Positions 20,706 to 24,610 of a DNA stretch of 64,000 bases are shown piece after piece. Each line of letters begins with the position of its first letter. Position 1 is the first letter of the stretch. Origin of the DNA: Desulfarculaceae bacterium. GTDB lineage: Bacteria > Desulfobacterota > Desulfarculia > Desulfarculales > Desulfarculaceae. The stretch lies in the NCBI GenBank assembly GCA_021737645.1, contig JAIPDO010000017.1:1-64000 (forward strand), read 5' to 3'. The notes under the pieces are model-generated. The model made no database searches and was not told the DNA's origin. It worked only from the letters and a program-made list of their open reading frames with translations. The position numbers and the translations under genes are program-made.

Positions 20706-21302
20706 TTAGAGAGCCTCGCCCCGGGCGGTCAAGGCTCCATTAGCGAATTTATCCAAGAAACGGTCCTGATCCTGGGGGCTCACCGCCTCCTTGAGCTTGG
20801 CCTCGGCCAACTTGGCGGCCAACTCCACGATCTCGTGGGTAAGCTCCCGGCGGGCGCTTTGCAGGGCCATCTCGGCCTGCAGCTTGGCCCGATCCATGAT
20901 CATTTCCGACGCCTCGCGAGCTTCGTCGATCATGCGCTGGCGATCACGCTCCGCCAGTTGCCCCAGAGCCTCTTCGTAACTGGCAAGCTCCTGGGCCATG
21001 CCGGCGGTTTTTTCCTGGATGAGCTTGAGATGGGCCTCGGCCTCGGCCTTGGCCTTGTTCACCTCTTCCAACTCGGCGGCCACATTGGCCCGCGCCCCGG
21101 CCAAGAACTCCTTGAGGGGCTTCTTGGCCAGTTTGTAGATCAAAAAGGCCAGCACCAGGAAGTTGGCGATCTTCCAAGCCCAGTCCCACCAGAATCTCCA
21201 GGCGGGAGGCGGCTGCTTGGCGGCCAGGGCCGGTTCGGCCCAACCGATCAACAGCACCACCGTCACCAGAGCCAGGGCTGCTATCAGATGCAAGGCTTTC
21301 AC
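20706..21302 (-). CDS. atpF: ATP synthase F0 subunit b
   Basis: A 198-residue peripheral-stalk subunit. It has a signal-like first hydrophobic segment (IAALALVTVVLLIGWAEPALA) and a second membrane helix (WAWKIANFLVLAFLIYKLAK), then a long charged helix (residues 65-190) that would dimerise with b' and reach the F1 head. The extra N-terminal segment is common in Desulfobacterota b subunits. Its ATGA overlaps the b' gene by four bases. Confidence 0.92.
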   Translation of the reverse strand: MKALHLIAALALVTVVLLIGWAEPALAAKQPPPAWRFWWDWAWKIANFLVLAFLIYKLAKKPLKEFLAGARANVAAELEEVNKAKAEAEAHLKLIQEKTAGMAQELASYEEALGQLAERDRQRMIDEAREASEMIMDRAKLQAEMALQSARRELTHEIVELAAKLAEAKLKEAVSPQDQDRFLDKFANGALTARGEAL

Positions 21303-21727
21303 GCGACCTCCCTACCCAGGATTCGACCGGCCATTTCCTTGGCCACCCTTTCGGCCTGGGCCCGAATTTCGCCGCGGGCTTGATCCATTTCTCCTCGGAT
21401 GGAAGCCACCATCTCCTCGGCTTGGCCCTTGGCCTTGGCTTGGGCCTCATCGATGACCTGGCGCGCCTCGCTCTCGGTCTTACGGCGCACCTCTTCCAGC
21501 CGGTCCCGCACCTTTTGGCGGCCCTGACCCAGCTGTTGGCTGTAGTCGGCCTTGGTGCCCACCGCCTGCTCGCGCAGGGATGCGGCCTCGGCCATCCCGC
21601 CTTTCAAGGTAGCCGTCCGCTCGGCGACCATCTTGCTGATGGGCTTATACATCAACCGGTTAAGGATGAATATAAGCACCAGCAGATTGATGATCTGCAC
21701 AAGCAGCGTGGCGTTGATGCTGATCAT
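21299..21727 (-). CDS. ATP synthase F0 subunit b' (second b-type stalk subunit)
   Basis: A 142-residue b-type subunit with an N-terminal membrane helix (LLVQIINLLVLIFILNRLMYKPI, the hallmark of b subunits) and a long coiled coil rich in Arg, Glu and Gln. Two different b genes side by side imply a b/b' heterodimer, as in phototrophs and many Desulfobacterota. It lies 16 bp after atpE and overlaps atpF. Confidence 0.9.
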   Translation of the reverse strand: MISINATLLVQIINLLVLIFILNRLMYKPISKMVAERTATLKGGMAEAASLREQAVGTKADYSQQLGQGRQKVRDRLEEVRRKTESEARQVIDEAQAKAKGQAEEMVASIRGEMDQARGEIRAQAERVAKEMAGRILGREVA

Positions 21728-21743: not shown

Positions 21744-21992
21744 CTAGACCACGAAGATTAGCAGCAGCGCCACCACCAGGGAGTAGATGCCGGTGGACTC
21801 GGACACTGCCTGTCCCACCAGCATGGTGCGGGTCAACAGGCCCGCTTCCTTGGGGTTGCGGCCGATGGCCTCACATGCTTTACCCGCGGCGAAACCCTCG
21901 CCGACGCCGGGGCCGATGGCGCCCAGGCCCATGGCGATTCCTGCGCCCATCAGGGCGGCCGCCCTCACCAGATCCGCGCCTTCAATGGCCAT
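21744..21992 (-). CDS. atpE: ATP synthase F0 subunit c, single hairpin, Na+-type two-carboxylate signature
   Basis: An 82-residue two-helix proteolipid. Helix 1 has GPGVGEG with Glu at residue 32; helix 2 has VSESTGIY with Val63, Glu65, Ser66, Thr67 and Tyr70. These positions match the Na+ ligands of Ilyobacter tartaricus c (Gln32, Val63, Glu65, Ser66, Tyr70), except that Gln32 is Glu. The Glu32/Glu65 pair is the two-carboxylate Na+ site described for Fusobacterium nucleatum. Sodium coupling is therefore likely. It has a strong ribosome binding site (GGAGG) and follows the five-hairpin c gene by 59 bp with a hairpin between them. Confidence 0.95.
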
Positions 21993-22051: not shown

Positions 22052-23272
22052 TTAAATCACAAACAAAAGCAACAGTGCCACGATGAGCGAGTAGATACCC
22101 GTTGATTCGCTCACCGCCTGGCCGACCAACATAACCCTGGTCAACAGCACGCTCACACCCTCGTAGTCGCGGGCGATGCGGTTGACCGTATAGGCCGCGG
22201 CCAGACCTTCGCCCACCCCGGGGCCGATGCCGCCGAAGCCCATGCAGATGCCGGCCGACAGCGGAGCCACCCAAGCCACCATGGACTCGGACGCTTCCCG
22301 AGGGATGAACAACAAGATCAGGCTGACCAAGAATCCGTAAATGACCGTGGACTGGGCCACGGTCTGGCCTATAAGCATGGTGGTGGTCACCGGCCCAGAG
22401 GCCTCGGGTACGCGGGCGATGCCCGCGGATGCCTCCTGTGCGGTGAAGCCATTACCGATGCCTGGGCCTATGGCGCTGAGACCGGTGGAGAGCCCGGCGC
22501 CCAAAAGGGCGGCCCAGGTGGGCCAGGGCGGGCTGTTGGACCAGTCTACGAACATAAGCATGAAAGCCACAACCATGCCGAAGATGGCCGGGGTCTGGCT
22601 GACCGCGCTGCCGATGAGCATGTTGGTGCGGATGGTGGTGGCCGCCGCGGGCTGGCGGGCCATGCCGGCGGTGGCGCTGCCCGCGGGCATGCCGGAGCCC
22701 ACGCCCGAGCCGATGGCCGCCAGGCCCACCGCGAGGCCAGCGCCCAACACCGCGGCCCAGCCGGGCCACAGGGGCTGGCTGGACCAGTCGATGAACATGA
22801 GCATGAAGGCCACGACCATGCCGAAAATGGCCGGGGTCTGGCTGACCGCGCTGCCGATGAGCATGTTGGTGGTCAGGGCACCCTGGGTGGAGGGGTTGTC
22901 GGCGATGCCCATGCAGGCCTCGGCCGCCGGGAAGCCGCCGCCGGCTCCGGAGCCGATGGCACTGAGGCCCATGGCCAGCCCCGAGCCCAACAAGGCCCAG
23001 GCTTCGATCATGGGCGCGCCTTCGGTGCTCATGAAGGCCAGGAGCATGGCGATGACCAGCGCGAAGATGCCCGCGCTTTCGGCCACCGCCTGGCCGATGA
23101 GCATGTTCTTCAGGATGGGGCCGCTCATGGCTGGGTTTTTACCGATGGCCCGGGAGGCGTTACCCGCCGCGTAGCCCTCGCCCAGGGCCGCGCCGATGGC
23201 CCCGAATCCCACCGAGAATCCGGCCCCCAAGAAGGCCGCGGCCTGTACCCAAGTTTCCGTGCTAAAGGGCAT
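22052..23272 (-). CDS. Five-hairpin fused F0 c subunit
   Basis: A 406-residue proteolipid made of five tandem c-subunit hairpins of about 80 residues (roughly 1-82, 83-163, 164-245, 246-328, 329-406), ten membrane helices in all. Each hairpin has the glycine-rich helix 1 and an ion-site helix 2. Hairpin 1 keeps Glu32/Glu65 (GALGEG-like loop and VAESAGIF); hairpin 5 keeps Glu355/Glu389 (VSESTGIY). Hairpins 2, 3 and 4 have Gln at 145, 226 and 307 and Gly112, Ser193 and Asn274 instead of the helix 1 Glu, so they should not carry an ion. It lies between atpB and the ordinary atpE, so it is probably part of a mixed ring. Frame is open with no stops or shifts. Confidence 0.92.
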   Translation of the reverse strand: MPFSTETWVQAAAFLGAGFSVGFGAIGAALGEGYAAGNASRAIGKNPAMSGPILKNMLIGQAVAESAGIFALVIAMLLAFMSTEGAPMIEAWALLGSGLAMGLSAIGSGAGGGFPAAEACMGIADNPSTQGALTTNMLIGSAVSQTPAIFGMVVAFMLMFIDWSSQPLWPGWAAVLGAGLAVGLAAIGSGVGSGMPAGSATAGMARQPAAATTIRTNMLIGSAVSQTPAIFGMVVAFMLMFVDWSNSPPWPTWAALLGAGLSTGLSAIGPGIGNGFTAQEASAGIARVPEASGPVTTTMLIGQTVAQSTVIYGFLVSLILLFIPREASESMVAWVAPLSAGICMGFGGIGPGVGEGLAAAYTVNRIARDYEGVSVLLTRVMLVGQAVSESTGIYSLIVALLLLFVI

Positions 23273-23282
23273 TAAGCGATTC

Positions 23283-23954
23283 CTACTTGGTTTGCACCGA
23301 GATATAGACCAAGGTCAGCATGGTGAACACGAAGGCCTGAATGGTTCCCACGAACAGTCCGAAGAAGGCGTTGAGCGCCGGGGGCAGCACCAAGCCGTAG
23401 ACCAGATCGCTCACCACCAAAATAATGATCGAGCCGCCCATGATGTTGCCGTAGAGACGGAAGGAGATGGAAACCACCTTGGACAACTCGCCGATTATGT
23501 TCAGCGGAGCCATGAAGAACATGGGCTGCACGTACTCGCTGAGGTATGCCTTGATCCCCTTGGCCTTTATACCGGCGTAGTGGGAGATGACAAAACCCAA
23601 CAGGCCATAAGCCAGCGGCGTATTCAGGTCTTTCGTGGGTTCACTCAGGCCCGGGATGACCCCCAGCATGTTGCTCAACCATATGAACAGGAACACGGTG
23701 AGGATCAACGGGAAGTAATGGCGGTTGCGCTCGTCCAAGGCATCGGACACCAGCCCTTGGAAAGCGTTTACCATCACCTCGCCCAGACTCTGCCAGGACC
23801 CCGGCAGGAAGGACAGCTTGCGGGTGGCCAGAAAACCGAACACCACCAGCACGCCCATCACTATCCAGGACATGATCAAGGTTTCGGAGTTGAACTCCAG
23901 GCGCATGCCGCCCAGGCTCAAATACCAGTGTGGTACGTTGGTCAGCTCGTTCAC
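23283..23954 (-). CDS. atpB: ATP synthase F0 subunit a
   Basis: A 223-residue stator channel subunit with about six membrane segments. The essential arginine lies in SISFRLYGNIMGG (about residue 166), and the C-terminal helix FGLFVGTIQAFVFTMLTLVYIS is typical. Together with the c ring it carries the ions that drive rotation. It follows atpI by four bases and precedes the five-hairpin c gene by 10 bp. Confidence 0.95.
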   Translation of the reverse strand: MNELTNVPHWYLSLGGMRLEFNSETLIMSWIVMGVLVVFGFLATRKLSFLPGSWQSLGEVMVNAFQGLVSDALDERNRHYFPLILTVFLFIWLSNMLGVIPGLSEPTKDLNTPLAYGLLGFVISHYAGIKAKGIKAYLSEYVQPMFFMAPLNIIGELSKVVSISFRLYGNIMGGSIIILVVSDLVYGLVLPPALNAFFGLFVGTIQAFVFTMLTLVYISVQTK

Positions 23955-23958
23955 GGCG

Positions 23959-24375
23959 CTATCTGCTCTCCGAGGTAGTACCCACCAAACGGCCGCCCAG
24001 GAAGCGGTCGCTCATGAGGGTGAACTGAACCGTAAAAAGTCCCACGGCGGCGGCCAGGGGCGCCACCCGCTGGGGCATGGACAGGGCCACGGCAAGGGCT
24101 ACGGCCATCAGACCGAAGCGAACCACCACTGAAACCACGGTAAAGGCCTGCCCCCGGCGTTGGGCCGGGTCCAGGGCGCGCGGCAACAGCCAAGCCATGA
24201 CCAGAAAATTTGCCGCCGAGGCCAGCCCGCCCAGGGCCAAGCCCCGAGCCCAAGCAGCCTGTCCGGCCACGGTGAGGATGAGGGCCCCGCCCACGGCAAA
24301 AAGCAGAGCACGGGTGATCACCTGCCGTACAAACAAGCCGGAGGGACCATTGGTCTTAATCACCGTTGCGCTCAA
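23959..24375 (-). CDS. atpI: ATP synthase subunit I-like protein
   Basis: A 138-residue protein with four membrane helices (from about residues 20, 45, 80 and 105). Position directly before atpB and size match AtpI, a c-ring assembly or Mg2+-supply factor that is poorly conserved in sequence. It overlaps the atpZ-like gene by 20 bp. Confidence 0.75.
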   Translation of the reverse strand: MSATVIKTNGPSGLFVRQVITRALLFAVGGALILTVAGQAAWARGLALGGLASAANFLVMAWLLPRALDPAQRRGQAFTVVSVVVRFGLMAVALAVALSMPQRVAPLAAAVGLFTVQFTLMSDRFLGGRLVGTTSESR

Positions 24376-24610
24376 CTTCGCCGTCCTCGGGCTCCAAGCC
24401 CACCTCTGAAATTTGCCGGTAAACCGTGTATCCCCCTCCGGCTATGCCCAGGAGGATGAAAACCGTTACAAACACCCCTTTGGCACCCAACCATTCGCCA
24501 AGCCAGTAGCCTATAAACAGGCAAAACAGCACCGACCCGGCGAAGGTCAGACCAACCTGCATCACCAGGGCCAAATGGTCCCAAACGGCTCGCGGCGGTC
24601 TACTCAGCAT
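24356..24610 (-). CDS. AtpZ/AtpI family small membrane protein
   Basis: An 84-residue protein with two membrane helices (about 16-36 GLTFAGSVLFCLFIGYWLG and 42-63 KGVFVTVFILLGIAGGGYTVY) and an acidic tail (EPEDGEVE). Matches the AtpZ group that accompanies atpI at the head of many F0 operons. It is the first gene after the operon promoter. Confidence 0.8.
   Translation of the reverse strand: MLSRPPRAVWDHLALVMQVGLTFAGSVLFCLFIGYWLGEWLGAKGVFVTVFILLGIAGGGYTVYRQISEVGLEPEDGEVERNGD

Follow-up and report, generated by a model that had tools for sequence, protein, structure and literature searches.

The window analysed here, a stretch of 64,000 nucleotides from a Desulfarculaceae bacterium (GCA_021737645.1, contig JAIPDO010000017.1), carries an Fo operon in which a c subunit of five fused hairpins lies between the genes for subunit a and for a single-hairpin c. 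The genes identified are given below in the order of their coordinates, with the basis of each assignment in parentheses.

20706..21302, minus strand: b/b'-type stator subunit, called b by position (Pfam)
21299..21727, minus strand: b/b'-type stator subunit, called b' by position (Pfam)
21744..21992, minus strand: single-hairpin c, 82 aa, with the full two-carboxylate Na+ motif E32, E65, S66, T67, Y70 (Pfam and motif)
22052..23272, minus strand: five-hairpin c subunit, 406 aa, ATG start (open reading frame, Pfam and AlphaFold2)
23283..23954, minus strand: Fo subunit a, stator Arg kept (SISFRLYGN) (Pfam and alignment)
23959..24375, minus strand: ATP synthase I chain, assembly factor type (Pfam)
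24356..24610, minus strand: ATPase gene 1 family protein (Pfam)

Read along this one strand, the Pfam assignments give the order ATPase gene 1 type, ATP synthase I chain, a, five-hairpin c, single c, b' and b. The operon holds no F1 gene, the next gene on the same strand being cytidylate-kinase-like by Pfam. Its order (AtpI-type, a, c, c, b', b) differs from that of an N-ATPase, and N-ATPase genes are absent from it.

The hairpins of the fused protein span approximately residues 8-81, 88-161, 169-242, 250-323 and 331-406, and their ion-site positions are as follows.

23078..23080, minus strand: Glu65, ion-site carboxylate of hairpin 1, with companion Glu32
22838..22840, minus strand: Gln145, neutral site of hairpin 2, with companion Gly112
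22595..22597, minus strand: Gln226, neutral site of hairpin 3, with companion Ser193
22352..22354, minus strand: Gln307, neutral site of hairpin 4, with companion Asn274
Residues Ser308-Thr309-Tyr312: kept in hairpin 4, putative half-site for Glu389 by the junction rule described below
22106..22108, minus strand: Glu389, ion-site carboxylate of hairpin 5, with companion Glu355

Pfam ATP-synt_C (PF00137) matched five stretches of the protein with a whole-protein E of 6e-67, which rules out a chance reading frame at 22052-23272 and bears out the five tandem c hairpins in one 406-residue chain that the initial annotation had described. The residues at the sites agreed with its account as well, both in the kept Glu65 and Glu389 and the neutral Gln145, Gln226 and Gln307 and, at codon level, in the replacement of the companion Glu by Gly112, Ser193 and Asn274 while E32 and E355 are retained. 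Its assignment to the F-type also stood: PF00137 (222.2 bits against a cut-off of 24) and TIGR01260 (152 against 43.95) both exceeded their cut-offs with whole-protein scores that add up over five hairpins, and the gene has atpB on one side and atpE on the other within an Fo operon. F-type c subunits are expected to carry one carboxylate per hairpin; here it is present in two of the five. A V/A-type subunit K was considered and rejected, the NCBIfam V-type K models falling below cut-off (119 bits against 211, and 103.1 against 188) and the neighbours being F-type a, b and b' with no V/A operon. The N-ATPase c model TIGR03322 gave the five-hairpin protein 174.9 against a cut-off of 130.85, a score summed over five hairpins, and the single c 66.2, below that cut-off.

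An AlphaFold2 model built with 20 five-hairpin sequences (mean pLDDT 94.9, pTM 0.92) showed ten helical segments of transmembrane length, with kinks drawn in some of them. Foldseek returned c1 of Acetobacterium woodii (4bem_J) as the top solved match to this model, and VIA-align superposed 4bem_J onto residues 246-406 at 1.7 A over 158 residues; a designed repeat protein ranked above 4bem_J by Z in VIA-align, but at 6.1 A. In the sequence search 4bem_J again came first (E 2.4e-25), followed by the c subunits of Fusobacterium and Ilyobacter.

Tandem copies of this kind could have arisen in assembly or by chance. The five repeats are diverged from one another (39-71% pairwise ungapped DNA identity), and independent genomes, one of them on a single contig, carry the same gene, which rules out an assembly artefact and leaves artefact or chance with a practically negligible probability. 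A search of sequenced genomes and an alignment of the hairpins, named in the initial annotation as a check, found the fused c in all eight genomes of the genus searched, the window's own included (the copy in G007 is cut by a contig end). In the other seven it shares 89-97% protein identity with that of the window, and in G005 it lies within a single 4.5-Mb contig. The observation of a five-hairpin c with three neutral sites is confirmed. Among seven same-genus genes compared, the five site residues were identical in all seven, and the 21 pairs gave dN of 0.018-0.111 and dS of 0.235-0.548 (NG86); the gene is under purifying selection, with dN/dS well below 1. Searching 60 genomes of relatives, again including the window's own, yielded 17 with a fused c over most of its length: the eight of the genus, four other family members whose protein also has five hairpins (G008, G010, G011, G014), and five genomes at a greater distance in which it has four (G020, G021, G031, G036, G053). 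In the same search the fused c was absent from other genera of the family, such as G009 and G013.

Across the phylum, a profile made from 11 fused proteins detected a fused c of two to six hairpins in 41 of 395 sampled genomes at a threshold of E 1e-40 or better. All 41 loci were read, and in each at least two hairpins share one frame, the locus in G294 being cut by its contig end. The figure of 41 is a lower bound, because short forms score less. A scan of named genomes took in the best 80 of 290 confirmed relatives, labelled Desulfobacterota or unspecified Deltaproteobacteria, Proteobacteria or bacteria. Cultured organisms are among the carriers, such as Desulfatibacillum alkenivorans (L053), Desulfosarcina widdelii (L075) and Dethiosulfatarculus sandiegensis (L044). 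The fetched loci contained 113 different fused proteins, of which 110, a sample biased to relatives of the window protein, were used; the three that were dropped are L020/L047, whose hairpin 1 contains a small duplication, and L017/L042 and L155, cut by contig ends. In L020 (1363-2637) and L047 the duplication is a short internal tandem one, ALGEGYAAGIAAQS occurring twice, and is either real or an assembly error. Written as the residue at the ion site of successive hairpins, the 110 proteins show these patterns.

Two or three hairpins: EE 1, EQ 1, EQE 4, EQQ 4
Four hairpins: EQQQ 36, EQQE 30, EQEQ 3, EQEE 2, EQQS 1
Five or six hairpins: EQQQQ 12, EQQQE 10, EQQQQQ 6

The order noted initially, in which the middle three hairpins are neutral, thus holds in the lineage of the window and fails as a general pattern, the 22 complete five-hairpin proteins dividing into 10 EQQQE and 12 EQQQQ. 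What is general is the Glu of hairpin 1, present in 110/110. The one protein with both of its two sites kept (EE, L159) lies in a locus of reversed order, single c and then fused c, and is perhaps close to the starting state.

The surroundings of the fused gene are conserved. Subunit a lies upstream in 109/110 loci, b/b' downstream in 107/110, and a single c adjoins the fused c in 109/110, a count that stood at 100 initially and rose when ten misses were rechecked, nine being recovered, among them a fragment cut by a contig end. In all 101 entries the neighbouring single c reads EESTY, the complete motif. The exception is the locus of L094 and L097 (8001-8972), which hold an orphan four-hairpin c (EQQE) with no a, b or single c beside it, and the MAG of L094 contains a second fused c, L092. 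Among the 70 loci whose downstream sequence reaches at least 4.5 kb, F1 genes directly follow the fused-c Fo cluster in seven and are not next door in 63, as in the window. L148 and L149 have the full row of a, six-hairpin c, c, b', b, delta, alpha, gamma and beta. Since some fused-c clusters include F1 genes, the fused c belongs to F1Fo enzymes.

We then compared the residues of the ion sites across the 462 hairpins of the 110 proteins, in which the site is Glu in 162, Gln in 299 and Ser in one. The second carboxylate, the helix-1 Glu, is present with 155 of the 162 Glu sites and with none of the 299 Gln sites. The half-site residues Ser/Thr66, Thr67 and Tyr70 track the carboxylate of the next hairpin and not that of their own: over 352 junctions, hairpin i has Tyr70 in 48 of 52 cases when hairpin i+1 has Glu and in one of 299 when it has Gln, and also at the one junction before Ser. 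The usual triplet before a Gln hairpin is TPF or SAF. On the last hairpin STY is present in 110/110, whatever the site of that hairpin. Tyr70 as part of its own hairpin's site was rejected, the non-last hairpins with Tyr70 being 3 of 115 with their own Glu and 47 of 237 with their own Gln. The loss of the site in the Gln hairpins, as claimed for the window protein, was borne out, with the helix-1 Glu, the helix-2 Glu and the half-site on the neighbour gone together.

Twelve junctions break one rule. Glu stands without a preceding Tyr70 in L081, L080, L114 and L116; Tyr70 precedes Gln in L139; Glu is paired with helix-1 L, I, V, L, K and Q in L055, L058, L109, L117, L161 and L024, respectively; and Ser occupies the site in L086. 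The later hairpins of L055, L058, L109, L117, L161 and L086, with Glu (Ser in L086) and a hydrophobic or Lys helix-1 residue, are candidate decaying sites or sites for another ion. The rule counts come from related sequences, and the Fisher p of 3e-53 for the half-site association ignores relatedness. On a tree of 72 four-hairpin proteins the site of hairpin 4 changes state only three times, as does that of hairpin 3; Tyr70 co-switches in about two thirds and never in the opposite sense, which is not significant (sign test p 0.5).

The half-site rule fits the geometry of solved c rings. In the Ilyobacter ring, one subunit holds the ion through Gln32 and Glu65 and the next through Ser66 and Tyr70, and the site of Enterococcus hirae NtpK is made of Glu139 and Gln110 from hairpin 2 and Thr64 and Tyr68 from hairpin 1, as given in the part of the paper drawn on here (PMC2359735). 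In Fusobacterium, Glu32 and Glu65 both bind Na+, according to the portion of PMC3692424 consulted. A. woodii c1, part of the solved ring 4bem, obeys the rule, with E-TS-F in hairpin 1 and Q-TT-Y in hairpin 2. Taken with this geometry, the rule makes the fused hairpins look as though they followed chain order around a closed ring and the end of the chain lay against a Glu hairpin. Judged from their residues, the Glu hairpins look like working Na+ sites and the Gln hairpins like sites dismantled on both sides.

Two other explanations bear on these data. Were the Gln hairpins still to bind or pass ions, the ion ratio would not be lowered, and the retention of Gln at 299 of the 300 non-Glu sites (the remaining one being Ser) does indicate that the site position matters. 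Yet the helix-1 Glu is missing in all 299 Gln hairpins and the partner half-site is gone before Gln at 298 of 299 junctions. A neutral side chain, moreover, cannot be exchanged against the stator Arg, so that we hold ion passage by Gln to be very improbable. The fused c might otherwise be no working part of the rotor, whether a decaying or unused paralogue or an assembly regulator, as could be imagined from the one orphan copy without Fo neighbours (L094/L097). This we find unlikely in view of a dN/dS well under 1, of the occurrence in 41 of 395 genomes with the operon place kept, and of residues that interlock across junctions; the junction rule, with its fit to the geometry of solved rings, is the strongest evidence for function over decay.

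The five-hairpin c is probably a rotor subunit of a Na+-type F1Fo enzyme, sharing its ring with the single c and passing fewer Na+ per turn than the ring has hairpins. Anatomy, operon, conservation and the coupled residue rule are observations; ring membership, ring size, ion and ratio we infer, and a ring holding both c types is proposed on the precedent of A. woodii. By that analogy, the best reading would be a hybrid low-gear Na+ rotor of the A. woodii kind, extended from two hairpins to a maximum of six; the mixed ring with fewer ions per turn proposed in the initial annotation agrees with it, and that interpretation is supported in part. The five hairpins would lie side by side, in chain order, in one ring with copies of the single c of the adjacent gene. 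Hairpins 1 and 5 would each contribute half of a two-carboxylate Na+ site (Glu32-type and Glu65-type), the other half (Ser/Thr66, Thr67, Tyr70) coming from the preceding hairpin, so that Glu389 would be completed by hairpin 4 and Glu65 by the hairpin that ends the adjoining chain. Because Gln cannot be charged, hairpins 2-4 would pass the stator without an ion, and fewer Na+ would therefore be moved per turn than there are hairpins.

A ring of fused chains only, for instance two five-hairpin chains giving 10 hairpins and 4 sites, with the single c in a separate ordinary ring, is an improbable arrangement. An invariant Glu on the first hairpin and STY on the last would also close such a ring; against it, the single c is adjacent in 109/110 loci, hairpin numbers of 2, 3, 4, 5 and 6 would force differing ring sizes on close relatives, and the A. 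woodii ring mixes both kinds, the 4bem entry containing both chains.

For the mixed ring, the Na+ F-type rings characterised up to 2013 all have 11 hairpins, in the part of PMC3692424 that treats them. An 11-hairpin ring with one five-hairpin chain would have 8 sites and not 11, and would use 2.7 Na+ per ATP and not 3.7. With one fused chain in the same assumed 11-ring, sites per turn would number 11 (EE), 10 (EQ, EQE, EQEE), 9 (EQQ, EQQE, EQEQ), 8 (EQQQ, EQQQE), 7 (EQQQQ) and 6 (EQQQQQ), a series that would run, as arithmetic only, from 3.7 down to 2.0 Na+ per ATP. At a low ratio, hydrolysis can hold a steeper gradient, and synthesis needs a larger one. The authors of the Clostridium aceticum study regard the lowered ratio as an adaptation to low-energy life, in the text of PMC7911925 used here. 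A counterpoint is that three to five neutral hairpins in a row would mean no ion-driven torque over a large arc, which is awkward for a synthase.

The closest known systems, the hybrid F/V rotors of A. woodii (c1 with c2/c3; 4bem) and C. aceticum, resemble that of the window in having a single and a fused c in one F-type operon. Their two-hairpin F-type c1 likewise has Glu in hairpin 1 and Gln in the next, a Na+ motif and the same half-site order, as far as the consulted part of PMC7911925 goes. In contrast, their fused c consists of two hairpins with a single site lost, whereas that of the window has five with three lost, and its relatives up to six with five lost; the helix-1 residue is Gln in A. 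woodii and C. aceticum and Glu in the fused-c family; and the window genome, unlike these two, has a separate Fo operon without F1. The c ring of Fusobacterium nucleatum (3zk1) is similar in its Glu32 and Glu65, which are both found in the working hairpins and in the neighbouring c, and differs in being built of eleven identical single hairpins (PMC3692424, same portion). Fused hairpins, often with lost sites, are familiar from the V/A K (c) subunits, including E. hirae NtpK, three-hairpin forms of methanogens and a Methanopyrus form with 13 hairpins and all 13 sites kept, in the section of PMC2359735 concerned; these belong to V/A enzymes, and the window protein is below the NCBIfam V-type K cut-offs. 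The N-ATPase c is also a Na+-type c and occurs in the window genome as well (L147), in another operon with another gene order.

A five-hairpin F-type c is new, as far as the open-licence papers searched show. The view that such a protein beside a normal c is undescribed stands within those papers, but not as a one-off, because forms of two to six hairpins occur in 41 of the 395 genomes. Brandt and Mueller reportedly noted in 2015 twelve species with Fo- and Vo-type c in one operon, and some of these may belong to the fused-c family. In the part of ProAD available, c/K variants with two or more hairpins, with or without sites, are described and a 2-6 hairpin series is not; a 2026 paper counts two to four atpE copies in Desulfatiglans relatives and, in the part available, gives no hairpin counts (PMC13343851). 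Ions per ATP are normally set by the number of identical c subunits in the ring. In the fused-c family the ratio seems to be varied through the fusion of hairpins and the silencing of selected sites, which gives a natural series that begins with EE and EQ and ends with EQQQQQ. Its members are ready test variants for how low the ion ratio can go, for the crossing of a long chargeless sector and for whether F1 serves two Fo modules, and the rule (half-site on hairpin i, carboxylate on i+1) reads which hairpins of any fused c are alive.

To work, the window machine would have to borrow the one ordinary F1 whose genes lie elsewhere in the genome. Genes for gamma (PF00231) and for a (PF00119) were tallied in the 41 carriers and in 16 non-carriers, the latter being not random but listed near the window's genome and mostly of its own class. 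Subunit a exceeds gamma by exactly one in 38 of the 41 carriers. The exceptions are the window's genome, G000 (+2), where an N-ATPase-like cluster stops at a contig end, and G189 and G294 (difference 0), gamma being in two pieces in G189. Of the 16 non-carriers, 13 have as many a as gamma, two in which no gamma was found stand at +1, and one with no a stands at -1. The single contig of G005 holds the fused-c Fo (L150), a plain pair of a and c (L151) and an F1 cluster that includes b' and b (L152); a second, lower-scoring gamma lies near a third a and was taken as N-ATPase. In the seven plain a-c loci that were read (L146, L168-L171, L174, L175), c has S-L-Y instead of S-T-Y, and no b was recognised near the pair. 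As one missing Na+ residue means H+ (PMC11738941, in the part drawn on), the plain Fo would be proton-type and the fused Fo sodium-type. The a and gamma counts suggest two rotors sharing one F1 head. We tentatively propose, as a possibility somewhat short of even, that a single F1 fits either a proton-type Fo, whose c has Leu for Thr67, or a sodium-type Fo with the fused, part-blank rotor and its own b/b' stalk, so switching both ion and gear.

Two further loci were seen in passing. L147 (4669-8385, contig C74 of the window's genome, G000) is the N-ATPase-like cluster, with beta, a, c and the start of b before the contig end cuts it. In L146 (4160-5259), a gene resembling the redox regulator Rex, a name given by eye, comes after the plain Fo pair of a and c.
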